This document shows, one piece after another, positions 9,303-24,161 of a stretch of DNA of 54,998 nucleotides (its first letter is position 1; each line of letters begins with the position of its first letter). The DNA is taken from the NCBI GenBank assembly GCA_902762855.1, contig CACWPR010000004.1:1-54998 (forward strand), in the 5' to 3' direction. The stretch comes from Ruminococcus flavefaciens (GTDB lineage: Bacteria > Bacillota > Clostridia > Oscillospirales > Ruminococcaceae). Under the pieces are notes generated by a model. That model made no database searches and was not told where the DNA came from. It was given only the letters and a program-made list of their open reading frames with translations. The position numbers and the translations under genes were made by a program.

Positions 9303-10424
9303 TTATGATATTTCTTTTTTACACATTTCCAAAGCCGCTGCAATGACCGCATCCATGTCATAATACTTATACTCGCCAAGTCGTCCGCCAAAGATGACCT
9401 TGCTCTCATTTGCGGCCAGCGCCTTGTACTTTGCATAGAGCGCACTGTTTTTCTCGTCATTAACAGGATAATAGGGTTCATCGCCAAGTTTCCACTCGGA
9501 GCTGAACTCACGGCTGATGACAGTCTTCGGCAGGTCATTGCCCTGTGCATCCTTGCCGAATTCAAACCACTTGTGCTCAATGATACGAGTCCACGGTGTC
9601 TCACAGTCTGTGTAGTTCACGGCAGCATTGCCCTGGAAGTTCGGAATATCAAGAAGCTCGTTCTCAAAACGTACACTGCGGTATTCAAGGGTGCCGAGCT
9701 TGAAATCAAAGTATGCGTCGATCGGACCGGTGTAGATGACCTTTTCTGCAATCGCATCCAGTTCTTCCTTATGCTCAAAATAATCCGTGTTCAGACGCAC
9801 CTCGATGCCTTCCAGCATATTGGCGACCATCTGCGTATAGCCGCCCACGGGAATGCCCTGATAGAGTGCGTTGAAGTAGTTGTTGTCAAAGGTCAGACGC
9901 ACAGGCAGCCGCTTTATGATAAATGCAGGAAGTTCCTTGCAGTCACGTCCCCACTGCTTTTCGGTGTAACCCTTGATGAGCTTTTCATAGATGTCACGTC
10001 CTACCAAAGAGATCGCCTGTTCTTCAAGGTTCTTAGGTTCGCCGGTTATCTCCCTGCGCTGCTCTGCAATTTTTGCAGCCGCTTCCTCCGGTGTTACGAC
10101 TCCCCACATCTTGTTAAAGGTATACATATTGAACGGGAGCGAATACAGCTCACCTTTGTAGTTTGCAACAGGTGAATTGGTGAAGCGGTTGAATGCTGCA
10201 AACTGCGTGATGTAGTTCCAGACCTCTGTATGGTTGGTATGGAAGATGTGTGCACCGTATTTGTGAACATGGATGCCTTCAACGTTCTCCGTGTACACAT
10301 TACCCCCAATGTTCGGGCGCTTGTCGATAACAAAAACGGACTTGCCGTTTTTTTTCGCTTCATGGGCAAAAACTGCTCCGTAAAGGCCGGAGCCGACGAT
10401 CAAATAGTCGTACACATCATCCAT
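9303..10424 (-). CDS. glf: UDP-galactopyranose mutase
   Basis: FAD enzyme that interconverts UDP-galactopyranose and UDP-galactofuranose, supplying galactofuranose for surface glycans. At 373 aa it has normal length. YLIVGSGLYGAVFAHEA is the FAD-binding GxGxxG, followed by GGNVYTE, VHKYGAHIFHTN, the active-site KGYTEKQWG and FGGRLGEYKYYDMD. It stands alone between its own promoter (10460-10489) and a terminator (9236-9287). Confidence 0.96.
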   Translation of the reverse strand: MDDVYDYLIVGSGLYGAVFAHEAKKNGKSVFVIDKRPNIGGNVYTENVEGIHVHKYGAHIFHTNHTEVWNYITQFAAFNRFTNSPVANYKGELYSLPFNMYTFNKMWGVVTPEEAAAKIAEQRREITGEPKNLEEQAISLVGRDIYEKLIKGYTEKQWGRDCKELPAFIIKRLPVRLTFDNNYFNALYQGIPVGGYTQMVANMLEGIEVRLNTDYFEHKEELDAIAEKVIYTGPIDAYFDFKLGTLEYRSVRFENELLDIPNFQGNAAVNYTDCETPWTRIIEHKWFEFGKDAQGNDLPKTVISREFSSEWKLGDEPYYPVNDEKNSALYAKYKALAANESKVIFGGRLGEYKYYDMDAVIAAALEMCKKEIS

Positions 10425-10459
10425 CCCCTTTCATTATCAGACTTTTCCGCTTACATAAT

Positions 10460-10489
10460 ATTATAATATACATCCCAGGCCATTGTCAA
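10460..10489 (-). promoter_or_regulatory. promoter of glf
   Basis: TTGACA (10484-10489) and TATAAT (10460-10465), 18-base spacer, minus strand. Confidence 0.75.
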
Positions 10490-10558
10490 GTATACATAAA
10501 ACCATTCCTGTTTACGCTGAGGAGAAAATATATCACTTCCATCATCTGAAAATACAAA

Positions 10559-10596
10559 ACAGCCCTGTCCTCAGATATACCTCCGGTCAGGGCTGT
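10559..10596. terminator. bidirectional terminator at the end of the lanthipeptide operon
   Basis: ACAGCCCTG / CAGGGCTGT arms with a 20-base loop, T-run on the plus side and TTTTGTATTTT on the minus side, 31 bases after the last immunity gene. Confidence 0.8.
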
Positions 10597-10627
10597 TTTT
10601 ACATCATATTTACCTGCAATACTCTGC

Positions 10628-11335
10628 TCAGATATATGCAGCTATACGCTTGCGTGCAATAAGAGTACCTGCTGCATACAAAAGCACTGATACGCCTATC
10701 GCTGCTGCTATCCTGTACAGTACATTATCGTTATTCATAGACAATATATACGGATAACACAAGGGGTCATATTTTTCCATATCCGAGCTTGAAATAAATA
10801 TCGTGGATATGATAAACAAAAGTCCGCTGAATATGACCGGAAGTGTGCCGTTCAGAAGAATAGCCGTAAAATACATCAGTACACACATCGGCAGGAAACA
10901 GATATATGCCGATGCAAGCGGAAGCAGTACTGTCTCTGTGACAGGACCCGGTGCAAGGTCTCTGATGAAATATATGCCGCCTATAGTCAGCGGAATGAAC
11001 ATAATGAGGACTGCTGCAAAGATAAGGATTATCTTTGCAAAATGCACGCTGCCCGAAGAGATGCCGCTCGTCATTACTATCCTCCAGCCGCCGCAGCTCT
11101 CCTCACGAGAGGTAAAAAGCATATTCAGCAGCATTATCCCCATTGGCACCAGGAACAGCAGAAATATCTGGCACAGGGTCACATAGGTCAGTCCCTTCTC
11201 TACCTTATCCATATTTTTTTCCAGCTTTGAACAGCCTATCGCTATGCCCGATACTGCTGCAGATGCAGTTATCATCAGCATGATGCTAAGCGAGATAAAC
11301 CGGTTCTTTATCAGCTCAGGATATATCATTTTCAT
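10628..11335 (-). CDS. lantibiotic immunity ABC transporter permease (LanG-like)
   Basis: A 235-aa ABC-2 type permease with about six predicted membrane segments (ISLSIMLMITASAAVSGIAI; YVTLCQIFLLFLVPMGIML; IILIFAAVLIMFIPL and others) and the conserved LLFTSREESCGGWRIVMTSG cytoplasmic segment seen in MutG/EpiG-like permeases. Last gene of the lan operon, 11 bases after the other permease. With it and the ATPase it should form a LanFEG complex that expels the lantibiotic from the producer's membrane. The G versus E label is by position only. Confidence 0.82.
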   Translation of the reverse strand: MKMIYPELIKNRFISLSIMLMITASAAVSGIAIGCSKLEKNMDKVEKGLTYVTLCQIFLLFLVPMGIMLLNMLFTSREESCGGWRIVMTSGISSGSVHFAKIILIFAAVLIMFIPLTIGGIYFIRDLAPGPVTETVLLPLASAYICFLPMCVLMYFTAILLNGTLPVIFSGLLFIISTIFISSSDMEKYDPLCYPYILSMNNDNVLYRIAAAIGVSVLLYAAGTLIARKRIAAYI

Positions 11336-11346
11336 ATTCTATTCTC

Positions 11347-12096
11347 CTATGACCGGATGTCGCAGTTCCTTCTCAGCAGCCTTCCGGATATGAATAGAAG
11401 TACTGCTGCCGCTGCAATTGAAAATACAGCTATCACCGCAGCCTCCGTCCATGTGGAAAGCGAATTGTGTGATACATATACCGACGGCACATAATAATTG
11501 AACCTATAATTGAAGCCCTTGCCGTAATACACCATTATGTCGGTCATCATAAATATTATAGATGCCGGCAGTACTAATGAGAGCTTTTTGGTAAACGCTA
11601 CAAGGAATATATAAAAGGACGCATACATACACACAGAGAAAAACTGTATCAGGAATCCCTTTATAAAAAGTCCCGGCTCCCAGGGGTCGCTGACTCCTGT
11701 TATAATGCCTGCTGCTGTGAGTGTTGCATAGTCACTTACGAGCAGTACGAACAGGTCAAATGCAACTGCTGTAAATTTCCTTATGACTATCTTCCTTCTG
11801 TATCCCGATGTTGCTACGAGCATCCAGCTATTGTTCTTCATCTCGGAATTAAAGGACTCATACACCAGAGCTCCGGCAATGATATGGCATATCTCGGAAA
11901 AATACAGGATCGTCTGCTCCTTGAATATGAGCTGCCACCTGCTTATGCCGTATACATCTATTCTTGGCAGAAGATATGACTCGTACCTGTATTTGAGACT
12001 TATACAGAGCATTATATTTACTGCTATCGGAAAAAGAATGCATAAGAGAAGTGTGGTCTTTTTTTGCTTGGTAAGCTCCAGTGTCTCAGTTCTCAT
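11347..12096 (-). CDS. lantibiotic immunity ABC transporter permease (LanE-like)
   Basis: A 249-aa ABC-2 permease with about six membrane segments and the same EMKNNSWMLVATSGYRRK cytoplasmic motif as its partner. I prefer the ATG at 12096 (MRTETLELTKQ). A GTG at 12105 is only three bases from GGGAGG, so it is less likely. The coding region overlaps the end of the ATPase gene, so the two are coupled. Confidence 0.82.
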   Translation of the reverse strand: MRTETLELTKQKKTTLLLCILFPIAVNIMLCISLKYRYESYLLPRIDVYGISRWQLIFKEQTILYFSEICHIIAGALVYESFNSEMKNNSWMLVATSGYRRKIVIRKFTAVAFDLFVLLVSDYATLTAAGIITGVSDPWEPGLFIKGFLIQFFSVCMYASFYIFLVAFTKKLSLVLPASIIFMMTDIMVYYGKGFNYRFNYYVPSVYVSHNSLSTWTEAAVIAVFSIAAAAVLLFISGRLLRRNCDIRS

Positions 12097-12814
12097 ATGC
12101 CGCACCTGCCTCCCTTATACACTTCATGTATGACTCCTCCATGGAATCTGCCTGATATTCCTCAAGGAAACGGTCCAGGTCATTGTCATACAGTATCCTT
12201 CCACGGTCTATCAGTACTACCTGATCTGCGATCTTGTCAAGTTCGCTGAGGATATGGCTGGATATGAGGAATGTCGCATTCTTCTTTCTGCGTATCTCGT
12301 TTATTATTTCCCTCACCTCGATGATGCCCTCAGGGTCAAGTCCGTTAAGAGGCTCATCCCATACCAGAAATTCCGGATCACCGATAAGTGACATGGCTAT
12401 CGCAAGCCTCTGCTTCATGCCAAGCGAAAAATCCCGTGCCTTTTTTCGCCCGGTCTTATCCAGATGTACCAGCTTCAGAAGGCTGCGTATCTCCTCCTCG
12501 TCATAGCTGCCCTTCTTCATCTCAGAGACTACCTTCATATTGGTATATGCATCAAGATGTCCGTAGAATGCTGCTGAGCCCACGATAGCTCCCATTGAAG
12601 AATGGGAGCCTTTGTCTTTTACGTTTATCGAGATCTTTCCTGAGTCCGGACTGATTATTCCGAATATCAGCTTTATTATCGTGGTCTTGCCTGCTCCGTT
12701 AGGACCGATGAAGCCGCATATCGAATTTTTTCGTATGCCGAACGTTGCCTTGTTGATGACCTTTGCTCCGCCGAGCTTTTTCGACACCTTATTGAAACTA
12801 ACTATATTCTCCAT
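12086..12814 (-). CDS. lantibiotic immunity ABC transporter ATPase (LanF-like)
   Basis: A 242-aa ABC ATPase: Walker A GPNGAGKTTIIK, signature FSLGMKQRLAIA, Walker B FLVWDEPLNGLDPEG with the E-loop typical of bacteriocin-immunity (BcrA/LanF) ATPases, and an H-loop LISSHILSEL. The start is the ATG at 12814 behind CGGAGGG; a TTG further upstream lacks a ribosome binding site. Between lanT and the two permeases, so it energises self-protection. Confidence 0.88.
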   Translation of the reverse strand: MENIVSFNKVSKKLGGAKVINKATFGIRKNSICGFIGPNGAGKTTIIKLIFGIISPDSGKISINVKDKGSHSSMGAIVGSAAFYGHLDAYTNMKVVSEMKKGSYDEEEIRSLLKLVHLDKTGRKKARDFSLGMKQRLAIAMSLIGDPEFLVWDEPLNGLDPEGIIEVREIINEIRRKKNATFLISSHILSELDKIADQVVLIDRGRILYDNDLDRFLEEYQADSMEESYMKCIREAGAAYEN

Positions 12815-12831
12815 AATGACCCTCCGTTTTT

Positions 12832-14967
12832 TCAATTCGACTCGTTGTTCATATAGAGCTCGTAGTACTCGCCTTTCTTTTCCATAAGCTCCTCATGTCT
12901 GCCCTCTTCAACTATCCTTCCGTCAGCAACTACGAATATCTTGTCTGCGTCTATGATAGTCGAAAGTCTGTGAGCTATCATTATCTGTGTACATCCTATC
13001 CTGCGTATATAATCTGTGATATTCTTCTCGTTCACTGAATCAAGAGCACTCGTTGCCTCATCCATTACTATTATCTTAGGCTTGTGGATGAGCGCCTTTG
13101 CAAGAGCTATCCTCTGACGCTGTCCGCCGGAGAGGTTGAGTCCCATTTCTGAGACCATTGTATTAAAGCCCATCGGCATGGCCTTTATCTCGTTGTAGAT
13201 ATTTACTGCTCGACAGGCCTCTTCCACCTCTTCTTCTGTGACACTGTCATCGTTCATTACTATGTTATCGTGTATAGACCTGCTGAGCAGATATACATCC
13301 TGCGGAACTACTCCGATATTTCTGCTGAATGATGTTTTCTTTATGGTATTCATATCCACTCCGTCAAAGAATACCATTCCGTCACCGACTTCATAAAGTC
13401 CGGATATTATCTTTCCGATAGAGCTCTTTCCGGCTCCTGACCTTCCAACAAACGCCACTCTCTGACCGGGCTCAACAGAAAAGGATAGTCCTTTGAGTAT
13501 GGGCTTGGAGTTTCTTGAATAGGAGAACTCCAGGTCTCTTATCTCTATACCGCCCTTCATGTCAAGGTCATTGGTACGCTCGTATGATGCCTCCTCCTTT
13601 TCACACCATATATCATTCACTCTGTTAAGGTATGCATTCGCAAGCACAAACTGCGTATAGGAGCTGAAAATGGATATTTCAGATGCGAAAAGTGTGGCTG
13701 CAAGACTCTGGAAGGCTACGACCTCGCCTACTGTTATCTCTCCCTTGAAGTATTTGAAGATTCCGAGTATCATTATCGCTATAGGCGCAAACATCTGGAA
13801 TGTTCCCGTAATAGACGAATAGATATTGCTGAGGGAGTACCTCTGCTTGTATTTTGCTATGAGCCTGTCAAGATGCTCTCCCCAGTTCTCATAGACCTGT
13901 TCTTCAAGTCCGGAGGTCTTTACTGATGATATGGTGATGAGGCATTCATTCTCCACTGCCTGGAGCTCTGACTGCTCAGTGACCTCGTTGTTGATGCTCT
14001 TGGCTATCGGCTCCTTTGTTATCGCAAGGAACAATACATTCAGCACACTGAGCCCTAAAACGCACAGCGTCAGAAACAGTGATTTTCTGAACATGAATAC
14101 CATTATGAATATCATCGTTCCTATATCGACTACTCCGCTGACTACCTGAGTCGTGAACAGCTCACGGAATCCGCTGAGGCTTGACATACGGTAGAGTATA
14201 TCACCGGAGCTCCTCAGCTCAAAGAACTTATACGGAAGTCTGAGCAGATGCCGGAATGTGGAACGCTCTATCTTGCGGCAGAAGAATATGTTGCATATCA
14301 TGATGTTCATACTCCGCATCAGAGTTGCTGCAAGATACAGTACCCCCAGCATGGCTATCGCCTTTACTGCCGGAAGTATGGACGCACTTCCTGTGGAGAT
14401 TATCGCCTTGTCTATAACGTCAGACGTCTTGTCAGGGACCTTTATAACGATAAGGTAGCTCAGTACTGCAAAAAGGAGAGCCAGAAACAGATTCAGCTTG
14501 TTATCGCTCATGGTCTTTATGACCATTTTCCACGGCGACTCCGCTTTGCTCTTTCCGGGTACGAAATCCTCCTCCGGTGAGGGAACGAGTATCGCATTGC
14601 TGAAATGCTCCTCTGCTTCCTCGTAACTGAGCTTCTGATAGCCTCTTGCCGGGTCCATGATGTACACCGTGCTGTCTGTGACCTTTTCTACGACTACAAA
14701 ATGCTTATTGTCCCAGAATGCTATGCAGGGTGGGACTACTCCTTTGAGTGCAGCTATGCTCTTGGCTGAATATGTCTTTACTGCCACCTTCCTGCTCTCG
14801 AATAGTATTCTCAGATTTGCCAGACTGTATCCGTCACGGCCGCATTCTATATCATTGCGGAGATCTATGAGTTTTTCCTTGCTGCCGAAATATTGCAGTA
14901 TCGCAAGGGTACAGCAAAGTCCGCACTCCGTCTGATTCATCTGTTCAATATAAGGTACTCTTTTCAT
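12832..14967 (-). CDS. lanT: lantibiotic ABC transporter with C39 leader peptidase (LanT)
   Basis: A 711-aa bifunctional exporter. Residues 1-130 are a C39 peptidase: QTECGLCC with Cys15, NKHFVVV with His89 and IMDPARG with Asp105 give the catalytic triad. Six membrane helices follow (about 160-440). The ABC domain has Walker A GRSGAGKSS (about 510), signature LNLSGGQRQR (about 613) and Walker B IIVMDEATSALD. It should cut both precursors after their GG site and export the cores. Its stop precedes the LanF ATG by 17 bases. Confidence 0.94.
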   Translation of the reverse strand: MKRVPYIEQMNQTECGLCCTLAILQYFGSKEKLIDLRNDIECGRDGYSLANLRILFESRKVAVKTYSAKSIAALKGVVPPCIAFWDNKHFVVVEKVTDSTVYIMDPARGYQKLSYEEAEEHFSNAILVPSPEEDFVPGKSKAESPWKMVIKTMSDNKLNLFLALLFAVLSYLIVIKVPDKTSDVIDKAIISTGSASILPAVKAIAMLGVLYLAATLMRSMNIMICNIFFCRKIERSTFRHLLRLPYKFFELRSSGDILYRMSSLSGFRELFTTQVVSGVVDIGTMIFIMVFMFRKSLFLTLCVLGLSVLNVLFLAITKEPIAKSINNEVTEQSELQAVENECLITISSVKTSGLEEQVYENWGEHLDRLIAKYKQRYSLSNIYSSITGTFQMFAPIAIMILGIFKYFKGEITVGEVVAFQSLAATLFASEISIFSSYTQFVLANAYLNRVNDIWCEKEEASYERTNDLDMKGGIEIRDLEFSYSRNSKPILKGLSFSVEPGQRVAFVGRSGAGKSSIGKIISGLYEVGDGMVFFDGVDMNTIKKTSFSRNIGVVPQDVYLLSRSIHDNIVMNDDSVTEEEVEEACRAVNIYNEIKAMPMGFNTMVSEMGLNLSGGQRQRIALAKALIHKPKIIVMDEATSALDSVNEKNITDYIRRIGCTQIMIAHRLSTIIDADKIFVVADGRIVEEGRHEELMEKKGEYYELYMNNESN

Positions 14968-14997
14968 AGTTCTCCTTGCTTCCTTTTTTGAGCGGTA

Positions 14998-17799
14998 TCA
15001 TACCTCAAGAGTCAGTACTGACGGACACTCAATGCCATTATACCGCATTATAGAATATGCCATACCGGTCATGCCCAGCATGAATGAAAACATATCATGG
15101 GCATTGGCTATGCCGCACTTTATACCGTTCTCAGCTATTTCAGCACCGGTAGTGCTATATATCTCAGCAGTCAGTTTTTCTGTACGCTCCCTGTACTCCG
15201 GCAGCTTTCTGCCTATCTCGCTGAGACAGTCAAGTATGCCGTATCTGCCGTGGCAGAGACTGTGATCACCGGAATTTCTCCAGGATGACTCCAGCTTATC
15301 AATGCACTTCTCAATGTCGCTGAGATACTTGCTTTCCCCTGCTGCAAGATAGCCTTCAAGCCGTGCAAGTGCGATGCCTGCGGCGCCATGACACCAGTAT
15401 ATCTGCTCGGTATCTGCATCAGGATACCGCAGGTCCTTCCAGTTGTTCCTTTCAGGGTCATAGCTGCGGTTTTCAATTTCAAACATCTTTTCCATGAACC
15501 TGTAGTATTTTTTATCCCCGGTCATATCATAGCAGATGGCCGCTGCCATCATGAGGCCGGAGTATCCGTGTGCAAGTCCGTTCATCTCTATGCTGCCGGA
15601 CCTTTCCATGCATATATCCATATACTCCGCTGCAAGCTCTCTGAGCAGCTCATCTTTTTCGTATCTGTATATCCTTCCGAGAAGAACTGCCATTCCAGCA
15701 AGACCTCCGCAGTAATCTATACTTGCATCATCATCAGGGACTATACCCCTTATGTGCTCAAGCACTCTTTTGTAGTCCCCATAGTACTTTTTCAGCCCTG
15801 TTATCCGGTACATGGAATAATAGATGTAAAGCATCGAACCTATACCGTTGAAGGCTGAGAGCGTATCATTGGCAGGAGCAAGTTCAAAGGCGCTGATGCC
15901 TCCTTCTGCATATTCAAGGTATCCCTTGTTTCCTGAAGCAGCCGCAAGTCTGGCAAGGAAAAGTACGCTTCCTCCGCCGTCGTATACGTTCGACAGCATA
16001 GGGCCAACCCTGACTGAGTCTCCTATGATGTGACTGAGCCATATGCACATTTCGTGCTCGTCATCCCAGCGGCCCTCGTGGCAGAAGTAATCGGCTGCGC
16101 TGTATACTCCTTCCATGCCGCCCTCTCTTAGATGAGGTGTGTATGTCTCCATTCCCTCCAGGGCGACTTCGCTGCTGCGGTCCCAGCTATCGTCAAACAT
16201 CGTGGACATGGCAAGCCTTATTATCCTCTGCTGAGATACAAGGTCATCCTCTGTGATGCAGGATATCCTCTTCCTGACTATGCTCAGGATGTCCTCGTCA
16301 AAAAAGTTCTCTATACTGCCGAATATGGAGCACAGCTCCTTTGAACCTGCCGGCTGATAGAAATATGGTATATCTCCGCCTAAAATGCTCTCTGTCTCCA
16401 TGTCTGCGAGCCTGCTGAACTTTTCACAGCCCTTATATGCTGATGACTTCAGCTTGCCTATAAGTGCTGACTGCTTTTCAAAGCTGCCAAGATAGTCCGG
16501 ATGATTTGACGCATCCATGAATTTCGCATAGACATATGTGGGCCTGAGGACCTGCCTTATACGGACATCTGTGCCTCTGAGCAGAGAAAGTATCATCTTC
16601 TCATAGCCGGCCCTGTCAGACAGGATGTACCTTATCATCCCGGTAAATCCGCTGAGTATCTGCGGCATGAATCTGTAGGCATTCTCCTCCTCTGCGGCCT
16701 CTTCGGTATAGTACTCCTTTTCAAGGCATATATCATCGGAGAATTCATTTTTCAGCCTGTAGCCTGCTATCTTCTGTGAAGCCTGCTTTTTTCCGGATGA
16801 AAGAGGACTTATGTCAATGTCAAAAATATTATGTGAAAGATTCATCGGCAGCAGCATAGTGTCAAGCACCGTGTCCTTCATCGCCCTTGTCATGGCAGCA
16901 GAATATCTGTCTGCTTTTACCTGGGAAAGAGTATAGCTGCTGTTCGATATCATCGTCTCGGTATCTATGATAACGGGATATTCTCTGCAGGATATGATGT
17001 TCTCCTTATGGAGGTCTCCCATTGCCAGTGAATAGGCTATTGCCATTATCTCTCCGTAACGGCAGTAGTACTTCTTCTTTTCATCCTCTGTTCCCGGCTT
17101 TACTGCACAGGCAAACTCCTGCCAGCCATAGTCTCCCATGTCATCTGAACGCATAGTCCTGAGGTCATAGGTGAGCTTCGGTGAGAGCTCTTCAAAGAGT
17201 TTTGAAAAGAATATATCGTTTGCAAGTGAATGTGGCTTATATATTATCTTAACGCCGCCTGCTTCAAGCATTATGGCCTTTTTTCCATGATTATGTGAAT
17301 CGGTATCCCCTGAAAAGCTCATGTGCTCCAGTTTCTTCGTGTCGAACCCGTAGCCGTCGAGCAGGAGCTCCCTGTCACGCTCCAGAGCGCTGAATACGTC
17401 CTCGCAGAGCGTAAGTGTATTCAGCGTGAGCGTCCTTATCTTTTCTGTGAGCACAGGGTATTTCTCTGAAAATCCCAGGAAATATGCCCTGTCATCAAAC
17501 TGTGAGCAGAACTGCTCATAATGTTCCTCCGGACTAAGTCCGCTTGCTTCTTCCTTGCTCAGGTGAAGCTCATAGATGAGCGTCCGGAGAGATACTGTAT
17601 GTACCATAGTGTAGTAAAGAGAGGTGCTCTCATTTACTATGTCATCTGCATTGTTTATACCGTATCTCAGGCAAAGCTCAGACATCCTATTCTGGTAATA
17701 GGCCGCATAGCGGCCTATATAGTTTATGAATGATATTTTTACATCGTGTTCTTCTGTCGGGATGTTTATTACATTTGTGAGAAAGTCGATATTGTTCAT
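14998..17799 (-). CDS. lanM: class II lanthipeptide synthetase LanM (933 aa)
   Basis: Bifunctional dehydratase-cyclase that installs lanthionine rings. The N-terminal dehydratase half has FSGDTDSHNHGKK, IIYKPHSL, GDLHKENII and PVIIDTETM, the kinase-like active site. The C-terminal LanC-like cyclase has CGGLAGMAVLLG, GLAHGYSG, YWCHGAAG and SLCHGRYG; the Cys and the Cys-His of the last two are the zinc ligands. The ATG at 17799 follows AAGGAGG; a further upstream ATG would translate through an inverted-repeat arm and is rejected. As it follows the beta precursor it may act on that peptide, but pairing is inference. Confidence 0.94.
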   Translation of the reverse strand: MNNIDFLTNVINIPTEEHDVKISFINYIGRYAAYYQNRMSELCLRYGINNADDIVNESTSLYYTMVHTVSLRTLIYELHLSKEEASGLSPEEHYEQFCSQFDDRAYFLGFSEKYPVLTEKIRTLTLNTLTLCEDVFSALERDRELLLDGYGFDTKKLEHMSFSGDTDSHNHGKKAIMLEAGGVKIIYKPHSLANDIFFSKLFEELSPKLTYDLRTMRSDDMGDYGWQEFACAVKPGTEDEKKKYYCRYGEIMAIAYSLAMGDLHKENIISCREYPVIIDTETMISNSSYTLSQVKADRYSAAMTRAMKDTVLDTMLLPMNLSHNIFDIDISPLSSGKKQASQKIAGYRLKNEFSDDICLEKEYYTEEAAEEENAYRFMPQILSGFTGMIRYILSDRAGYEKMILSLLRGTDVRIRQVLRPTYVYAKFMDASNHPDYLGSFEKQSALIGKLKSSAYKGCEKFSRLADMETESILGGDIPYFYQPAGSKELCSIFGSIENFFDEDILSIVRKRISCITEDDLVSQQRIIRLAMSTMFDDSWDRSSEVALEGMETYTPHLREGGMEGVYSAADYFCHEGRWDDEHEMCIWLSHIIGDSVRVGPMLSNVYDGGGSVLFLARLAAASGNKGYLEYAEGGISAFELAPANDTLSAFNGIGSMLYIYYSMYRITGLKKYYGDYKRVLEHIRGIVPDDDASIDYCGGLAGMAVLLGRIYRYEKDELLRELAAEYMDICMERSGSIEMNGLAHGYSGLMMAAAICYDMTGDKKYYRFMEKMFEIENRSYDPERNNWKDLRYPDADTEQIYWCHGAAGIALARLEGYLAAGESKYLSDIEKCIDKLESSWRNSGDHSLCHGRYGILDCLSEIGRKLPEYRERTEKLTAEIYSTTGAEIAENGIKCGIANAHDMFSFMLGMTGMAYSIMRYNGIECPSVLTLEV

Positions 17800-17814
17800 C
17801 TGAATGCCTCCTTG

Positions 17815-17841
17815 GAAGATGCCCTTAATATATCGCATATG
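17815..17841 (-). repeat. left arm of a 27-bp inverted repeat flanking the precursor genes
   Basis: On the minus strand this reads CATATGCGATATATTAA, GGG, CATCTTC. The right arm at 18477-18503 reads the same on the plus strand with two differences (AGA for GGG). It ends 3 bases before the AAGGAGG of lanM (933 aa). Confidence 0.85.
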
Positions 17842-17876
17842 CATTATTTGATTTTTTTCTTTTGATCACCGTTTAA

Positions 17877-17980
17877 AGCCGTTAGCTTTTAGCATTAGCC
17901 GCCAGCTCAGTCCTGCGTGACAGCCATGCTTCGGCAAGCCGTTATCCGTGCTAACAGCTAACAGCTAATAGCTAACGGCT
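17877..17980. repeat. inverted repeat with GCTAACA-type heptamer repeats between beta precursor and lanM
   Basis: Perfect 11-base arms AGCCGTTAGCT (17877-17887) and AGCTAACGGCT (17970-17980). The right side is a run of 7-base units from 17950: GCTAACA, GCTAACA, GCTAATA, GCTAACG. There is no T-run, so it is probably an mRNA stabiliser, processing site or partial attenuator that sets precursor-to-enzyme ratio. Confidence 0.7.
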
Positions 17981-18019
17981 CCCTTCTGCGGCAGATCGTG
18001 GTCGTGTTATTGTATCAGA

Positions 18020-18193
18020 TTACTTGTTGCAGCTCTTTGTGCAAGCAGATGTAGGGCAGCCACCCCACATATAGGATGCAACGATAGTAGCAGTTATGAT
18101 TACTGTGGGTGTACCGCCGCCGTTTACGTTCTCGCCTGCGAGAGCCTCAAGCTCCATCTCGTCAACCTTACCTGTGATCTTATCCATTTTCAT
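18020..18193 (-). CDS. lanA2: two-component lantibiotic beta precursor (LanA2), 57 aa
   Basis: Leader MKMDKITGKVDEMELEALAG then ENVNGGG, cut after the double glycine by LanT. The 30-residue core starts TPTVIITATIVASYMWGG and ends CPTSACTKSCNK. The CPTxxCTxxC tail is the signature of beta peptides of two-component lantibiotics (haloduracin beta, lichenicidin beta, flavecins). Three Cys and nine Thr/Ser allow three rings plus dehydrated residues in the hydrophobic N-terminal part. AAGGAG precedes the start. It lies between the alpha gene and lanM. A GGG rather than GG leaves room for one-residue variation in cleavage. Confidence 0.92.
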   Translation of the reverse strand: MKMDKITGKVDEMELEALAGENVNGGGTPTVIITATIVASYMWGGCPTSACTKSCNK

Positions 18194-18270
18194 AATTAAT
18201 TTCTCCTTTTTAAATATTATTTTTTAGTATTGTTTTATTATTGTTTATAAGCTGTTATATGCAGTTTTTA

Positions 18271-18453
18271 TCAGTTGCAGTTGTTCTGGCACTCGATAGT
18301 TGCTGTGCAAACGCCGCCCTTGTTGCCCATGATGTTGCTGAACCAGCTCAGCTTCATCCAGTCAGGGTATCCGCCTACGAAGTTTGCGCTTGCCTCATCG
18401 ATAGCCTCAAGAAGATTTGTGTTGATGTCCTTTTCGATCATTGGGTTTTTCAT
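18271..18453 (-). CDS. lanA1: two-component lantibiotic alpha precursor (LanA1), 60 aa
   Basis: Leader MKNPMIEKDINTNLLEAIDE then ASANFVGG, with a GG cleavage site. The core begins YPDWMKLSWFSNIM and ends GNKGGVCTATIECQNNCN. GNKGxxCTxTxECxxxCN is the mersacidin/haloduracin-alpha signature, whose CTxTxEC ring binds lipid II. There are three Cys; the N-terminal Cys that makes the disulfide loop in haloduracin alpha is absent, so the first ring probably uses Ser8 or Ser11 of the core. Ribosome binding site GGAGG. First of the two precursor genes, 70 bases after lanM (1017 aa). Confidence 0.93.
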   Translation of the reverse strand: MKNPMIEKDINTNLLEAIDEASANFVGGYPDWMKLSWFSNIMGNKGGVCTATIECQNNCN

Positions 18454-18476
18454 AATTAATTTCCTCCATTTTTTTA

Positions 18477-18503
18477 CATATGCGATATATTAAAGACATC
18501 TTC
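18477..18503 (+). repeat. right arm of the 27-bp inverted repeat flanking the precursor genes
   Basis: CATATGCGATATATTAA, AGA, CATCTTC on the plus strand; 25 of 27 bases match the left arm (17815-17841) in inverted orientation. The 635 bases between the arms hold exactly the two precursor genes and the heptamer hairpin. Confidence 0.85.
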
Positions 18504-18522
18504 ATCAAGAACAAATGCATAT

Positions 18523-21500
18523 CTATTCAAGCCAGAGAAATTGTGGTATTTCAAAATCTGTATAATGTGAAAGCAATGAGTAGCCCCATCCGGACAGTCC
18601 TATCATCAGTCCGTAGCTGTTGCAGCTCTTCAGCTCCTTTTTGTTCCAGTTTCTGGAAAGGGTATTTGTATACAGCTCCTCAAAGGTGTTGAAAACGCTG
18701 TTCCGCAGCATGACATTGTTCAGTACTCTTCCTGCCAGGTCTATGACAGCAAGGTTTCCAAGGTCTCCGTGACAGTAGGTGGGACTTTTTCCGAAGCCGT
18801 TCTTCCGCACTGTCTGTACTGCTGAGAATATCTCGTCCTTTATCATGCTGTCACGATAGCCATATCTGAACAACAGCAGCTTGCTGAGAAGTATCCCTGC
18901 TGAGCCATGACACCAGAGATGTGTCACCTTCCGGTCCTTATCTCCTCTGTGCCAGCCGGCACCGTCCGCTGTCATGCATGAGCGCTCAAACCTCAGAGAG
19001 TCTTCGGTGAGCTTTGAACAGCTTTCGCTGCCTGTTATCTTTCCTGCCCGGTAAAGATATGGATGTATCCCGGCATTGCCGTGTGCAAAGCCTGTATATC
19101 TTACCCCGCTCGGCTGCTCCCATACCGCAGCACCTCCGCTGCGGACTGCTGATGCTGAAAGACTTTCCGCAAGCCTTCTGATGACAAGCTCTGTCATTCT
19201 CTTGCTGCTGCCGGTCTGCCTTTCTCTCATGCTAAGGGCAACTGCCAGTGCTCCTGATGCTCCGGATATAAGGTCGTGATACCTGTCAGACTCGCTGTGC
19301 CCGCCGCATACTTCCAGCGCTTTTTCCGCTGTTTCCTGCCACTTTACGTTTCCGGTAAGTGAGGCTATATGTCCGGCGGAATATGCAAGTCCTGAGACTC
19401 CTGTGAAGGCGCCTATGGACAGCTCACTTTCACCGTAAAGCGGCTCGTAGTCAGCCACAACAGTCCTGAGAGCCATTTCTGCATATTCAAGATATTCCCT
19501 GCGCCCGGTCAGCTTCCAGAGCTCTGCAAGGAAAAGTGCTATTCCGCAGTTTCCGTTATAGAGCTCGCTTCCAAGCACCGACGGCACCCAAACATCTTCT
19601 TCAAAGCCTTCGACTGTCACACATATCCAGGATGCATCCTTCTGTCCGCTGTCACTTTTGCCTTCAATGGCGTTCTCTATCATCAGCTTTCCGATGTCCT
19701 CAGCCGTCCTGAGCCACCTTTCGGTATCTATACTATGGTCAAGGATGCTTATTCCCGTGACTTCACTAAGGTCCTTCCTTGTGATAAAGGAGTACCTTAT
19801 GAACTCAAGCTGCTTTTCAAGGTCTGCGCTGCCAAAGAACCGGACCTTTGCTGAGATATTTCCGAGAACAGGCTCGATGACTGCTTTCTCCGCTACCGGA
19901 CTCCCGCTTTTGTAAAGCCGGCTGTCTCCTATCCTGAATGTGAAGTAGGGTACATCTCCGTGAAGAAGGTCCTCGTATTCACTGAGCGTTATCTCAGGTC
20001 GCTTTCTGTACTCGTTTATGAATATACGGTGCAGTATCAGGCGCCGTTCAAATTCCTTACGGGCAAAGTCCTGGTTCAGCGCTATATTCAGAAGCTGCAT
20101 ATAGCTGAATGTGGGTCTGATTATGACTCTTCCCTCAATGCCTTCGAACAGCTCGCTCACCTTGCTGATGTACTTTTCCTTGTTGTCCATTATCCAGGAA
20201 TAAACATTCCTGAAGCCTTTGCATATCTCGTTGGAATACTTCTGAGCGTCAGCCATACCTCCGTTGAAGGAAGGATTGTTTTTTTCAGGCCTCATCACTC
20301 CGTATCTTCTCTCGATATGTATCTCATCACTGTTTTCATCAGTGACAAAATCTGTTTTTATCGTGGACTTCTGTTCCTGGAATGCACTCAATCCGCCAAT
20401 GTCGAGCTTTCCGTTAACATAGACCGGAAGCATTCCCACTGTCACGACTGACGATGCATATTTCTCCATTGCGATACGTCTTGAACTGTTCCGTCCTGCG
20501 TTCTCTTCTACGATAAGGTCAGGCTGGAGCAGAGTTTCAAGATCTATCAGCACCGGATATTCTCCGCAGGATATGATGTTCTCGAAATGCATATCCGAAC
20601 CGTTCAGAGAATAAAGTATCCCCAGCAGCTCGCCGCTTCTTTCATAGAACCTTCGGACTTCATCCTCGTCAGCACATTCACGGTATTCAACAAAGGCCGA
20701 AAAGCCGTGGTCCTCTCCGGAAATTATTTCCGGTGTGATGTGGTCATGCACCTCTTCGCTTTCCTCTGAAAGCCAGTCAAGCAGTTCTCTGAACCGGAGG
20801 TCTATCTTCATCTGATGAGGCTTGTACAGGAAATGTCCGCCGCTCCGGACCATTATCTCAGCAACGCTCCTGCCATGATTGTGCGTATCGCCGCTGCCGG
20901 TCTTTACCGCCGTTATCCTGTCTGAAAATACGTCTATCCCGAATCTCCGGCATATCTCTTCACTGCTGCGCTCTGTCCTTTCAAGCACCTCCGCCAGCAT
21001 CCCGGACTCTTCATCGAGCTTCATGTATGTCAGCTTTACTATGTTCTGGTACTCCTCATAGAAACGGACCACGTTCTCCCTTTCGGTGCAGTATCTTTTG
21101 ATGAAGAACTCCTGACGGCTCTTTAGCTCCGGGTCATCAAGACTTCCGCTGCTGCTGAGATAATTGTATTCGTACACTATAGACCTGAACATTATCCCTG
21201 ACGCTTTGCTGAACATCAGTCCTGCTGCGTTATTCAGGAAGCTCTCTTTTACTATTATCCTGCTGTTCCTGCACTTTTCTGCAAGGGACTTGAGCACTTT
21301 GTTAAGGACCGGCATTATCACCGGTGAATACAATCTGTATCTGCCTTCAAGGGAATTTTCAAGTTTCCGGCAGGAAGTGCAGTAATCAAAGTCTGCGTAT
21401 TCTTCCGCCTCAAAATCTCCCTTGTCATTGTATCGGCTGTAGCTCTCTTCAAGCTCATCAAGGTCTATGCTTCCGTCTGAGGAGATAAGCTCTTCAAGTT

Positions 21501-21576
21501 CCCCGCGCCCGACTTCCGGATAGAATCTCTTCCAGTAGTCCAATATATTATCTTTTGTAAAAACTGAACTTTTCAT
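18523..21576 (-). CDS. lanM: class II lanthipeptide synthetase LanM (1017 aa)
   Basis: Second LanM of the cluster, only distantly similar to the 933-aa one. Dehydratase motifs: TGSGDTHNHGRS, FLYKPHQMKIDLRF, GSDMHFENII, PVLIDLETLLQP. Cyclase motifs: GVSGLAYSAG, GFAHGNAG, LWCHGSAG and YCHGDLG, keeping the zinc-binding Cys, Cys and His. ATG preceded by GAGGAG. First full-size gene after the lan promoter and directly before the alpha precursor, so it probably modifies the alpha peptide (inference). Two LanMs for two peptides is the haloduracin arrangement. Confidence 0.94.
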   Translation of the reverse strand: MKSSVFTKDNILDYWKRFYPEVGRGELEELISSDGSIDLDELEESYSRYNDKGDFEAEEYADFDYCTSCRKLENSLEGRYRLYSPVIMPVLNKVLKSLAEKCRNSRIIVKESFLNNAAGLMFSKASGIMFRSIVYEYNYLSSSGSLDDPELKSRQEFFIKRYCTERENVVRFYEEYQNIVKLTYMKLDEESGMLAEVLERTERSSEEICRRFGIDVFSDRITAVKTGSGDTHNHGRSVAEIMVRSGGHFLYKPHQMKIDLRFRELLDWLSEESEEVHDHITPEIISGEDHGFSAFVEYRECADEDEVRRFYERSGELLGILYSLNGSDMHFENIISCGEYPVLIDLETLLQPDLIVEENAGRNSSRRIAMEKYASSVVTVGMLPVYVNGKLDIGGLSAFQEQKSTIKTDFVTDENSDEIHIERRYGVMRPEKNNPSFNGGMADAQKYSNEICKGFRNVYSWIMDNKEKYISKVSELFEGIEGRVIIRPTFSYMQLLNIALNQDFARKEFERRLILHRIFINEYRKRPEITLSEYEDLLHGDVPYFTFRIGDSRLYKSGSPVAEKAVIEPVLGNISAKVRFFGSADLEKQLEFIRYSFITRKDLSEVTGISILDHSIDTERWLRTAEDIGKLMIENAIEGKSDSGQKDASWICVTVEGFEEDVWVPSVLGSELYNGNCGIALFLAELWKLTGRREYLEYAEMALRTVVADYEPLYGESELSIGAFTGVSGLAYSAGHIASLTGNVKWQETAEKALEVCGGHSESDRYHDLISGASGALAVALSMRERQTGSSKRMTELVIRRLAESLSASAVRSGGAAVWEQPSGVRYTGFAHGNAGIHPYLYRAGKITGSESCSKLTEDSLRFERSCMTADGAGWHRGDKDRKVTHLWCHGSAGILLSKLLLFRYGYRDSMIKDEIFSAVQTVRKNGFGKSPTYCHGDLGNLAVIDLAGRVLNNVMLRNSVFNTFEELYTNTLSRNWNKKELKSCNSYGLMIGLSGWGYSLLSHYTDFEIPQFLWLE

Positions 21577-21609
21577 ATTTGCTCCTCTTTTTTACTGATA
21601 CTTGACCGC

Positions 21610-21654
21610 TCAGTCCCAGAGCCAACCAAAAAGATTTATGATGCATAATGCCAT
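21610..21654 (-). CDS. 14-aa hydrophobic ORF at the head of the lan operon
   Basis: ATG at 21654, preceded by AGGAAG at good distance, encodes MALCIINLFGWLWD and stops 33 bases before the 1017-aa LanM. It is the first ORF after the lan promoter (21732-21760). The peptide is hydrophobic with Trp-Leu-Trp near its end. It may be a leaderless signal peptide for the AgrC-like kinase upstream, a translational leader, or chance. No homologue is known to me. Confidence 0.45.
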   Translation of the reverse strand: MALCIINLFGWLWD

Positions 21655-21731
21655 TTTATTCACTTCCTTTTCCTTTATTGTGAAAGACTTGTTTTTGCTG
21701 TTTTTTCTTCACGTCTTCCGTTTACAATGTG

Positions 21732-21760
21732 AGTATACCACCCACTGAGGAAGTTTTCAA
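21732..21760 (-). promoter_or_regulatory. lan operon promoter
   Basis: TTGAAA (21755-21760) and TATACT (21732-21737), 17-base spacer, minus strand, about 75 bases before the 14-codon ORF. Confidence 0.75.
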
Positions 21761-21767
21761 TTTTTTT

Positions 21768-21792
21768 CCGGTTTCAGGTCGGTGAAATCCGG
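21768..21792. promoter_or_regulatory. inverted repeat just upstream of the lan -35 box (candidate LytTR operator)
   Basis: CCGGTTTCA, six bases, TGAAATCCGG: an imperfect palindrome ending seven bases before the -35 box. CCGGAAAA/CCGGATTT units also recur about 21 and 27 bases apart here, and 21-22 base periodicity is usual for LytTR regulator sites. The location fits an activator site. Confidence 0.5.
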
Positions 21793-21831
21793 CAAACGGT
21801 ATTTTTACATCTTTTCCGGCTTTTTTGCGGC

Positions 21832-21862
21832 AAAAAAAGGGACCCTTTAAAAGGGTCCCTTC
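21832..21862 (-). terminator. terminator of the two-component system operon
   Basis: AAGGGACCCTT-TTAA-AGGGTCCCTT followed by TTTTT on the minus strand, 40 bases after the kinase stop. It separates the regulatory genes from the lan promoter. Confidence 0.85.
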
Positions 21863-21901
21863 ACTCTGTATAATAAGAATATCACTTTTATGTTCATATT
21901 G

Positions 21902-23206
21902 TCAGCTCCTGTCCGGTACTGCGTCCGGCAGGATTATCTCTACCTTAAATCTGCGCTCATCATAGGTAAATTCCGCTGTTCCTCCGTTTCCGGAGACGCA
22001 CTGCTTTACATTCATTATGCCAAGTCCGTGATTTTCACTGTCCTTCTTGCTGGTGATGAACCGGCCGCTCTTCTCTCTGACATCTTCACTCTTTGTGTTG
22101 ACTACAGTGATAACAAGGCTTCCGGCAAATTGTCCTATGGATACATCCACGGTCTTTTCTTCCTTGCATTTTGATGCGGCCGCCATTGCATTTTCAAGTA
22201 TGTTTGAAAAGATTATACATATGTCCATATCGTTCATATTCATTTTTCCTGGAACTACACCTTCCCAGGAAAGAGAAACATCTGCATATTTCTCCTTGAT
22301 GTCATTGACTATGGCATTTACCAGTATATTTCCGGTGCTGTACTTCTGTCTTGCCGCTGCAAGCGTAGCTGACATGGACGAAAGATAATCCTTCGCCTCA
22401 TTGTATTTCCCGGACTCTAACAGCGCCCTCATGCATAGTACATGATTATTCATATCATGCCGGAAGTGCCGCAGGCTCTCGTCATTTTTAAGGAGCTGCT
22501 GATAGTAGCCCTCCTTCGACTTCATAAGCCTGTGATTTATCTCTGCGGTCTGTTTGTAGTGGTTCATCGAGCTGTTGCTGTATATGAGGAGCACTCCCAA
22601 CAAAAGGAAAAACACACTGAACAGTGCTGTACATATCGCTATGATGCGATTGTTGCGCAGGCTCGATGAAAAGCCGGACGTAATGAACGGTGAGACAACT
22701 ATAAGCGATATTGCCTGCCCGATTATAAATATAAGTATATACGAGGTATCCGGCTTTTCAAATATGCTCTCTTTCTCACAGTGCTTGCTGCGGTAGAATT
22801 TCTCCATTGCAACTGATATGAGCATAAGTACCATGAGGTTCGCTGAATTCATCAGTGAAAAGGCCATCGGGTCCTCGCTGAGCTGCTCATTGCTTATATG
22901 CAGTATTCGGCTCATTATTATACATATAAGGTCGTCCAGACAGCATATTCCGAAATAGACAAAGGTACTCAGCAGCAGTCTGCGGTGCCCCTCTGTCAAA
23001 AGTGAACATATCGGTATCACCGCCAGTACAAGCAGAGACATCCTGTAGCTGCTGTCGTGTATGCTCATTATCACAAGGTATATCGTACAGGCACATAAAA
23101 GTATCAATGCCGGCAAAGAATATTTGACCCTGCGATTTATTATCCCCTTCATGGCAAGGATAAGCTTAAAAAACTCTACATAAAAATTCGCAATATTTAT
23201 CAGCAT
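21902..23206 (-). CDS. AgrC-type sensor histidine kinase (GHKL)
   Basis: A 434-aa membrane kinase. The first 215 residues form about six membrane helices (for example YSLPALILLCACTIYLVIMS and LLLGVLLIYSNSS). The dimerisation/phosphoacceptor part holds FRHDMNNHVLCMRALLESGK (His in RHDMNNH). The GHKL ATPase has the N-box IIFSNILENAMAAAS and G-box HGLGIMNVKQCV. This is the HPK10 class that senses peptides (AgrC, ComD). It starts eight bases after the response regulator gene and probably senses the lantibiotic or a peptide signal. Confidence 0.88.
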   Translation of the reverse strand: MLINIANFYVEFFKLILAMKGIINRRVKYSLPALILLCACTIYLVIMSIHDSSYRMSLLVLAVIPICSLLTEGHRRLLLSTFVYFGICCLDDLICIIMSRILHISNEQLSEDPMAFSLMNSANLMVLMLISVAMEKFYRSKHCEKESIFEKPDTSYILIFIIGQAISLIVVSPFITSGFSSSLRNNRIIAICTALFSVFFLLLGVLLIYSNSSMNHYKQTAEINHRLMKSKEGYYQQLLKNDESLRHFRHDMNNHVLCMRALLESGKYNEAKDYLSSMSATLAAARQKYSTGNILVNAIVNDIKEKYADVSLSWEGVVPGKMNMNDMDICIIFSNILENAMAAASKCKEEKTVDVSIGQFAGSLVITVVNTKSEDVREKSGRFITSKKDSENHGLGIMNVKQCVSGNGGTAEFTYDERRFKVEIILPDAVPDRS

Positions 23207-23214
23207 ATTTTCCT

Positions 23215-23931
23215 CTATCGTATCTGGGCATTATTCTTTATATAATTGAAATACTCATCCTTTGCTGCTGTTATGTTCCTTCTTGAAACAGGCAGCTCCA
23301 TGTCAAAGCTGTCAATGAGTACATTTCCGTTTTCTATTTTCTTAACGTGCCTCAATGATACAAGATATGAACGGTGTATCCTGAAAAATCCTTTATCCTT
23401 TAATTTTTCCTCGAACCACTTTAACTGATAGGAGCTTTCATAGAAGTGCTTCTCGCTGTCATATATGTATGTGCCGTCACCGAAAGCCTCCATATACACA
23501 ATGTTTTTGAGCTGTATCTTGGCTATCTTTCCCTTCTGACTTATTACAATATGCTCTGTATTCAGCATTTCCATTTCTGTTTTTTGCAGCGTCTCCACAA
23601 GCTCGGCATATACTACAGGCTTTTTCAGGAATCTGAATGCTTTTACCGTGAATGCCTCAAATACAAATTCGTCATGACTTGTGGTGAAAACTATCCTTAC
23701 ATCCTCGTCCCTGTCCCTGAGCTCCTTTGCTGCCGACATTCCGTCTGTCCCCGGCATATCAATGTCAAGGAATATGATGTCGAATTTCTCATTTGAGCGA
23801 AGAAGGTCTCCGCCGTTATTGAATTCATAGATGTTCATGTCAACGCTGTAATCGTTGAGCAGAGATTTCAGATAGTCACAATGATACTTCTGATCGTCAC
23901 ATACCGCAACCTTTATATTGATCCCTGTCAT
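23215..23931 (-). CDS. LytTR-family response regulator (AgrA-like)
   Basis: A 238-aa regulator. The receiver domain (6-120) has VAVCDDQ, the phosphorylated Asp in DIIFLDIDMPGTDG, and FTTSHDEFVFEAF and KPV. The C-terminal LytTR DNA-binding domain (140-232) has VYMEAFGDGTYIYDSEKHFY, FFRIHRSYLVSLRHV and ELPVSRR. It should activate the lan promoter on phosphorylation by the adjacent kinase. First gene of its own operon, promoter at 24080-24108. Confidence 0.9.
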   Translation of the reverse strand: MTGINIKVAVCDDQKYHCDYLKSLLNDYSVDMNIYEFNNGGDLLRSNEKFDIIFLDIDMPGTDGMSAAKELRDRDEDVRIVFTTSHDEFVFEAFTVKAFRFLKKPVVYAELVETLQKTEMEMLNTEHIVISQKGKIAKIQLKNIVYMEAFGDGTYIYDSEKHFYESSYQLKWFEEKLKDKGFFRIHRSYLVSLRHVKKIENGNVLIDSFDMELPVSRRNITAAKDEYFNYIKNNAQIR

Positions 23932-24026
23932 ATTTCCCCCTATTTCTGAATGCTTTTGTAAATCTGTTGATCTGTCATATATACTGTTTCTTCATCATGT
24001 ATCGGTAACGTATCATAAGTTTTTCC

Positions 24027-24053
24027 GGAGGATCAGATACTATCGTATCCTCC
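24027..24053. other. hairpin in the leader of the response regulator mRNA
   Basis: GGAGGAT / ATCCTCC arms with an inner GATAC-TATC-GTATC stem, within the first 60 transcribed bases of the regulator operon. No T-run follows. Confidence 0.5.
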
Positions 24054-24079
24054 CGATAAAGTATTATAATGCACAGTAT

Positions 24080-24108
24080 ATTATACCATAGTTCAGTGTA
24101 TTTGTCTA
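24080..24108 (-). promoter_or_regulatory. promoter of the two-component system operon
   Basis: TAGACA (24103-24108) and TATAAT (24080-24085), 17-base spacer, minus strand; leader about 145 bases. Confidence 0.75.
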
Positions 24109-24120
24109 CCATATTTTATA

Positions 24121-24155
24121 TAAAAAGTAAAAAGCAGCATCGTTTTGATGCTGCT
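24121..24155 (-). terminator. terminator after the sugar transferase gene
   Basis: AGCAGCATC-AAAAC-GATGCTGCT (24133-24155) then TTTTTACTTTTTA on the minus strand, six bases after the stop codon. Confidence 0.85.
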
Positions 24156-24161
24156 GATATA

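Follow-up and report, generated by a model that had tools for sequence, protein, structure and literature searches.

A predicted two-peptide class II lantibiotic locus in Ruminococcus flavefaciens and a conserved mini-ORF ahead of its first LanM gene

Introduction

The two-peptide class II lantibiotic vagococcin T has immunity of the LanFE type and an Fsr-like, peptide quorum-type two-component system, as described in PMC9431498; the same paper names CTxTxEC as the motif that docks on lipid II and CPTxxC(T/S)xxC as the typical beta motif. The lacticin 3147 cluster of pMRC01 (L045) combines alpha and beta motifs with two LanMs, a dehydrogenase gene, and a helix-turn-helix regulator, and no kinase is annotated adjacent to it. 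A set of 195 lanthipeptide clusters from the rumen, mostly predicted to be class II, is described in PMC8241843, which calls for their study. Here we describe a locus at 10628-23931 on the minus strand of a 54,998-nucleotide stretch of Ruminococcus flavefaciens DNA (the window; assembly GCA_902762855.1, contig CACWPR010000004.1) that very probably directs the synthesis of a two-peptide class II lantibiotic, acting by the mechanism proposed below. As far as our searches reach, the predicted compound appears to be new while its kind is already known; the surprise would lie in a 14-codon open reading frame (mini-ORF) ahead of the first LanM gene.

A complete two-peptide lanthipeptide locus

An earlier note on the window had proposed that this region holds every part of a two-peptide lanthipeptide system of class II, and each gene that it named is present with the same ends. 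The locus runs from the stop side of LanG (10628) to the start of a response regulator gene (23931), and all of its reading frames are open. The ten cluster proteins were scanned against Pfam and NCBIfam, and families were assigned at curated cut-offs. Scores above these cut-offs were obtained for the two precursors (beta through NCBIfam alone), LanM1 and LanM2, the transporter with its C39 domain, and both members of the two-component pair. The gene set is as follows, where Firm_05 denotes Clostridiales bacterium Firm_05, a metagenome-assembled genome of a second species:

23215-23931, minus strand: LytTR-type response regulator, 238 aa (Response_reg 69.5 bits and LytTR 67.2 bits, above cut-off)
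21902-23206, minus strand: AgrC-type sensor kinase, 434 aa (HATPase_c_5 (GHKL) 76.5 bits, above cut-off)
18523-21576, minus strand: LanM1, 1017 aa, putative alpha synthetase (lanti_2_LanM 745.7 bits against a cut-off of 304; in the tree with LtnM1)
18271-18453, minus strand: alpha precursor, 60 aa (leader 1-28 ending in Gly-Gly, core 29-60 YPDWMKLSWFSNIMGNKGGVCTATIECQNNCN)
18020-18193, minus strand: beta precursor, 57 aa (leader 1-26 ending in Gly-Gly, core 27-57 GTPTVIITATIVASYMWGGCPTSACTKSCNK)
14998-17844, minus strand: LanM2, 948 aa, putative beta synthetase (lanti_2_LanM 570.1 bits against a cut-off of 304; in the tree with LtnM2)
12832-14967, minus strand: LanT, 711 aa (C39 peptidase, membrane, and ATPase domains above cut-off)
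12086-12835, minus strand: LanF-like immunity ATPase, 249 aa (ABC_tran above cut-off)
11347-12105, minus strand: LanE-like membrane protein, 252 aa (named by position alone; 82% identical orthologue in Firm_05)
10628-11335, minus strand: LanG-like membrane protein, 235 aa (weak matches; 68% identical orthologue in Firm_05)

The two LanMs, read in the earlier note as different enzymes, both exceed the cut-offs for the DUF4135 dehydratase domain, the LanC-like cyclase domain, and lanti_2_LanM, and the two matches to the LANC_like profile in the window genome (a 2.70-Mb draft of 143 contigs, 92.88% complete) both fall inside the locus. The assignment of LanT as a C39 transporter is borne out by above-cut-off Pfam matches to Peptidase_C39, ABC_membrane, and ABC_tran and by the motifs QTECGLCC, HFVV, DPARG, GRSGAGKS, LSGGQ, and VMDE. 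A C39-bearing LanT is thus found together with Gly-Gly leaders, as in class II systems. The proposed AgrAC-type two-component pair is likewise upheld by HATPase_c_5 in the kinase and by Response_reg and LytTR in the regulator. An Rfam scan across 10000-25200 at gathering thresholds returned no match.

The immunity genes are less clear-cut. Gene order and the LanF ATPase argue for the LanFEG-like transporter of the earlier note, but the E protein (11347-12105) has no Pfam or NCBIfam family match, and the G protein matches ABC2_membrane_4 (E 0.0016) and MutE (E 0.031) only under cut-off. The top NCBIfam model for LanF is a lantibiotic protection ATPase, at 212 bits under its cut-off of 310. Because E is unmatched, G is weak, and LanF falls under that cut-off, the name LanFEG is carried by gene order and LanF.

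Relatives within the genus and beyond

Firm_05 already holds the same cluster, with the gene order of the window. Its alpha precursor is identical to that of the window at 58 of 60 residues, and its beta precursor differs by one substitution and two inserted residues; identity is 79% for LanM2, 92% for LanT, 91% for LanF, 82% for E, and 68% for G. The full sequence of the Firm_05 contig LVAK01000154.1 (L010) recurs without a single difference inside L023, which belongs to genome G029. The Firm_05 kinase (76% identical) and regulator (86%) lie on a second contig, L065, along with the mini-ORF. The LanM1 gene is split across two contigs, the LanM1 contig ending inside the gene. Twelve codons of alpha and 12 of beta changed between the two genomes, and of these 10 and 11, respectively, are silent; the Firm_05 beta gene also has a two-codon insertion. 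In LanM1, 272 of 416 changed codons are silent (814 comparable codons). The earlier reading as a two-peptide lantibiotic is supported, with "new" taken in a narrow sense: the cores are distinct, and three core fragments had no match in 5.39 million open-access papers (subscription papers lay mostly outside the search), but the cluster itself is already present in the public genome of Firm_05.

Among 125 genomes of the genus, the alpha precursor is matched in three (the window, Firm_05, and R. flavefaciens XPD3002, the last by its leader only), the beta precursor in four, and DUF4135 in six. A family sample of 396 genomes gave one alpha match, the window's own. A LanM1 scan of species genomes found 13 loci, with Firm_05 nearest.

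Firm_05 aside, the nearest layouts found with both peptides are clusters of the flavecin type, in which alpha and beta genes are each present in several copies, in two genomes of the genus, G002 and G038. These share a common plan with the window at about 28 to 42% identity. The G002 cluster (L041) has two LanMs and both alpha and beta motifs, with LanT 42% and LanF 40% identical to those of the window; its best-matching LanMs are 28 to 29% identical, and the leaders differ. The 20 kb fetched from G002 contain four alpha and seven beta-type genes, one of the seven lacking CP(T/S)xxC, and no relatives of the kinase or regulator were found in them. In G038 (L042), two LanMs accompany two alpha and two beta genes, again with different leaders, and a kinase/regulator pair nearby on the opposite strand is 22% and 35% identical to the window pair.

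The LanM locus of XPD3002 (L011/L024) resembles the window in a LanM 48% identical to LanM1 and in a closely similar precursor leader. It differs in that its LanM is the only one in the genome and its seven precursors have unrelated cores, none with CTxTxEC or CP(T/S)xxC. No relative of the kinase pair was found in the fetched XPD3002 stretch. The seven precursors (L024:10356-12258) share one leader and carry very different cores. Two of these cores hardly differ, which agrees with PMC13289728, where six core peptides without known matches are reported.

Precursor peptides and their cores

The 60-aa alpha and 57-aa beta precursors of the earlier note are both present, and their family scores exceed the cut-offs. 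Alpha scores 28.6 bits against Pfam Lantibiotic_a (cut-off 27) and 41.4 bits against the NCBIfam plantaricin C family (cut-off 29). Beta scores 64.4 bits against NCBIfam LchA2/BrtA2 (cut-off 26) and has no Pfam family match. Each precursor family has a single match in the window genome. The CTATIEC of alpha fits the CTxTxEC motif, and the beta tail CPTSACTKSC fits CPTxxC(T/S)xxC. Comparison of the alpha precursor with Protein Data Bank (PDB) sequences gave 35 matches up to E 1, the best at E 0.22, to antibody and T-cell receptor chains, which we set aside as chance.

The cores start as previously read, with YPDWMKLSW directly after the alpha Gly-Gly and YMWGG ahead of CPTSACTKSC in beta. The alpha core carries Ser 8 and 11, Cys 21, Thr 22 and 24, and Cys 27 and 31, and the absence of an N-terminal Cys noted before is confirmed: no Cys lies ahead of the GNKG block. 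Haloduracin- and plantaricin W-like alpha peptides have an N-terminal Cys pair that forms a disulfide loop. The window alpha lacks this pair, so that a haloduracin-type disulfide is impossible. Lacticin 3147 is like the window in its alpha and beta motifs, its two LanMs on matching sides of the LanM tree, and its A-ring Ser-Cys spacing, but its alpha core begins with Cys.

A Ser ten residues ahead of the CTxTxEC Cys is common to the window alpha, lacticin A1, and the alphas of G038 and G002. Alpha peptides of two-peptide systems form rings A, B, and C, and the retained A-ring Ser-Cys spacing suggests that these usual rings can form here. In the beta core, Ser 14 stands six residues ahead of Cys 20; Thr takes the place of this Ser in several betas of the flavecin type. 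The computed masses of the unmodified cores are 3623.58 Da (monoisotopic) for alpha and 3160.51 Da for beta. The two core features stressed in the earlier note, the Cys-less alpha start and YMWGG, are real but fall within the spread among aligned relatives; judged by that alignment, YMWGG in beta is ordinary variation.

Pairing of the two LanMs with their substrates

LanM1 carries WCHG and YCHG motifs, and both LanMs have the WCHG and CHG cyclase motifs as well as a D(T/S)HNHG motif; here and in LanT, the motifs are taken in their customary roles. In a tree of 14 LanMs, LanM2 falls with LtnM2, with its own orthologue in Firm_05, and with a single LanM from each of G002 and G038; a branch with support of 97/99 divides these from a side that includes LanM1, LtnM1, the LanM of XPD3002, and one from Priestia that adjoins a plantaricin C family precursor. 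In approximately unbiased (AU) tests, for which the groupings were chosen after the tree was seen, constraining LtnM1 to the LanM2 side is weakly rejected (p-AU 0.026), and a tree that joins LanM2 to the other LanM of flavecin type is strongly rejected (p-AU 2.7e-7). By the tree, LanM1 would serve alpha and LanM2 would serve beta, an assignment that we hold with moderate confidence because the Ltn branches are long and the groups were named post hoc.

A second line, independent of the tree, ties LanM1 to alpha: the alpha leader MKNPMIExxIN...EAIDE recurs with small changes in the seven precursors beside the XPD3002 relative of LanM1. Further, the closest solved relative of LanM2 is LicM2 (319.5 bits), which we take to be a beta synthetase, and LanM1 scores 258.8 bits against the same protein. 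Some two-peptide systems use a single LanM. In the window, one alpha-type and one beta-type LanM are seen in the tree and AU tests, subject to the length of the Ltn branches.

Operons and the two-component pair

The two minus-strand operons of the earlier note are supported by an inverted repeat and T run that split the kinase gene from LanM1. Besides this terminator, we found two promoter-like sites and a hairpin between the beta and LanM2 genes:

24080-24108, minus strand: promoter-like site of the two-component operon (TAGACA-17-TATAAT, 11/12)
21837-21861, minus strand: terminator of the two-component operon (12-nt perfect inverted repeat, then a T run)
21732-21760, minus strand: promoter-like site of the lan operon (TTGAAA-17-TATACT with TG, 10/12)
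17877-17980, minus strand: intercistronic hairpin, beta/LanM2 (17-nt arms AGCCGTTAGC/GCTAACGGCT, 94% complementary)

The promoter-like sites are consensus matches only, and each is weak alone because 44 such sites were found in the region against 26 expected in shuffles. That of the two-component operon is partly conserved in Firm_05; in the lan promoter, the -10 site and a block upstream of the -35 are conserved there. At the terminator position, Firm_05 has an inverted repeat of other sequence (by eye). An apparent likeness between the lan promoter block and the DNA that precedes the XPD3002 LanM gene was rejected, as direct comparison gave a 9-base match with E 0.29.

The 175-nt spacer between the beta and LanM2 genes (17845-18019) folds with a z of -5.6, and none of 200 shuffles was as stable. 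The hairpin arms are kept in Firm_05, with part of the loop diverged. A dispersed repeat was considered and rejected, as the hairpin has a single match in the genome. It may take part in mRNA processing or damping.

The kinase and regulator form an AgrC/AgrA-type pair, and no AgrB scores above cut-off in the window genome at its 92.88% completeness. A near-miss of 22.4 against 23 bits lies within a 646-residue reading frame on another contig. AgrB proteins are shorter than this, so that the frame is too long for AgrB; one of 14 control genomes also gave a sub-cut-off match to the family. No AgrD-like reading frame was seen by eye beside the pair. The window genome differs here from vagococcin T, which has FsrB/FsrD-like pheromone genes (PMC9431498).

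A conserved mini-ORF between the lan promoter and LanM1

The leader of LanM1 contains a short reading frame that was absent from the first reading of the window:

21610-21654, minus strand: mini-ORF, 14 codons plus stop (ATG...TGA), MALCIINLFGWLWD, a candidate signal or regulatory leader peptide

It is preceded by a Shine-Dalgarno-like AGGAAG and ends 33 nt ahead of LanM1. In Firm_05, where the mini-ORF lies near the edge of the contig that also holds the kinase and regulator, the encoded sequence reads MVVCIINLFGWLWD, with 10 base differences from the window over 45 positions and 2 changed residues. Seven of the 10 base changes fall on the third base of a codon (P 0.02 when position alone is considered), and a change of only 2 residues was reached by 7 in 100,000 random substitution sets (permutation P 7e-5). 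Eight candidate starts were listed in the LanM1 leader, which calls for an approximately eightfold correction; the conservation signal, drawn from two sequences, survives it.

The FGWLWD-codon pattern occurs in 2 of the 125 genus genomes, the window and Firm_05, which are the two that carry this cluster, and the NLFGWLW-codon pattern in 1 of 396 genomes in the family sample, which contains the window genome, where the match lies, but lacks Firm_05. Neither the extended pattern nor relatives of the kinase were found in the viral contigs scanned, and no FGWLWD-type mini-ORF was found upstream of the XPD3002 LanM or the first LanM of L041. Two fragments of the peptide had no match in the open-access literature, again with subscription papers mostly outside the search. 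The codon changes suggest that the mini-ORF is probably translated, and its peptide is most likely regulatory.

A cis-acting leader peptide and a pheromone are the two main readings, and they stand nearly equal. As a leader peptide, the mini-ORF would act through ribosome transit over its Trp-rich end, tuning translation or termination before LanM1. Its position in the 5' leader, 33 nt from LanM1, and two Trp codons near the stop make this a plausible reading, though one short of favored: the leader RNA is no more stable than shuffled sequence (z -0.54, with 54 of 200 shuffles matching or exceeding its stability), no site in the leader appears in the terminator scan, and the residues ahead of the Trp codons are also conserved. 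Attenuation by the LanM1 leader is thus unsupported by folding.

Tentatively, the mini-ORF product could instead be a linear, leaderless pheromone that is exported and sensed by the AgrC-type kinase, closing an autoinduction loop with the LytTR regulator in which no AgrB is needed. Its residues are kept despite silent DNA change, the frame is well placed after a promoter-like site and ahead of LanM1, its motif is limited to the two cluster-bearing genomes of the 125, and the genome has no AgrB above cut-off, the near-miss lying on another contig in the 646-residue frame. A peptide quorum-type system is also described beside the vagococcin T genes in PMC9431498. However, the peptide has no Gly-Gly site, is strongly hydrophobic, and is backed by two sequences only. 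The lantibiotic itself could also serve as the inducer, as nisin does for its own production. We know of no AgrC-type kinase with a ligand like this peptide, which counts against a pheromone as well. That M(AL or VV)CIINLFGWLWD is a founding example of leaderless linear pheromones, one that acts through an AgrC-type kinase without AgrB to autoinduce a two-peptide lantibiotic in Ruminococcus-type bacteria seems rather unlikely.

It is improbable that the mini-ORF encodes a very small membrane-active accessory such as an immunity peptide, as its hydrophobic composition would suit that role but its 14 residues fall far below the length of LanI proteins. A small hydrophobic LanI candidate is present in the vagococcin T cluster according to PMC9431498.

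Proposed mechanism and significance

In the mechanism that we propose, LanM1 would dehydrate and cyclise the alpha precursor and LanM2 would do the same for beta, after which LanT would cleave both leaders behind Gly-Gly and export the cores. Alpha would dock on lipid II via its CTATIEC ring, beta would join, and a pore would open, while the LanF-type transporter would shield the producer. The LytTR/AgrC-type pair would turn on the lan operon from the promoter at about 21760-21732, and the hairpin 3' of the beta gene would probably damp read-through so that precursors outnumber enzymes. The chemistry, target, pore, immunity, and regulation in this scheme are predictions drawn from the genes, family membership, motifs, conservation, and LanM tree that we observe.

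Several points weigh against a working two-peptide lantibiotic. The alpha core has three Cys, fewer than flavecin-type alphas, and a computed charge of about 0; neither presumed permease has a family match above cut-off; and LtnM1 and LtnM2 are very long branches in a tree whose tested groups were named post hoc. A decayed or silent cluster with no active product would fit the draft state of the genome (92.88% complete, 143 contigs) but is very improbable, given that every frame is open, the motifs are present, and the precursor changes relative to Firm_05 are mostly silent.

Read as a two-peptide lantibiotic, the locus would add a compact one-alpha/one-beta member to a genus in which the other two two-peptide clusters seen, both flavecin-type, are multi-gene. 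The leader type common to the precursors of LanM1 and of its relative in XPD3002, whose cores are unrelated, would offer a clean leader/enzyme pairing of use in peptide engineering. If confirmed, the mini-ORF would point to very short unannotated genes inside lantibiotic operons that could carry the induction signal.

Genomic setting and other loci

The cluster is flanked in the window by a bacterial sugar transferase gene (24162-25049) and a UDP-galactopyranose mutase gene (9303-10424). Across 9303-25049 it thus sits between polysaccharide-type genes, whose order differs in the near relative G098. There, the sugar transferase is 92% identical to that of the window, and the next two genes are homologues of the window nucleotidyl transferase (2300-3187) and dehydratase (696-1724). 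The flanks in Firm_05 are different again, with SufBD-type and ATP-binding cassette (ABC) genes on one side and another two-component pair on the other. The differing neighbors in the window and Firm_05, together with the gene order in G098, indicate that the cluster sits at different sites, which suggests that it moved horizontally between genomes.

Two further loci were noted. On plasmid pFDU301E of Priestia megaterium (L044:9614-22214), a LytTR/Spo0B-domain pair and an annotated cyclic lactone autoinducer peptide lie between two annotated lanthipeptide units, a plasmid case of peptide-sensing control beside LanM genes. In G123, another genome of the genus (L043:8194-11620), a lone LanM has a possible precursor nearby that ends in NCGAYWTVSYECWFWAC, perhaps a different class II lanthipeptide.

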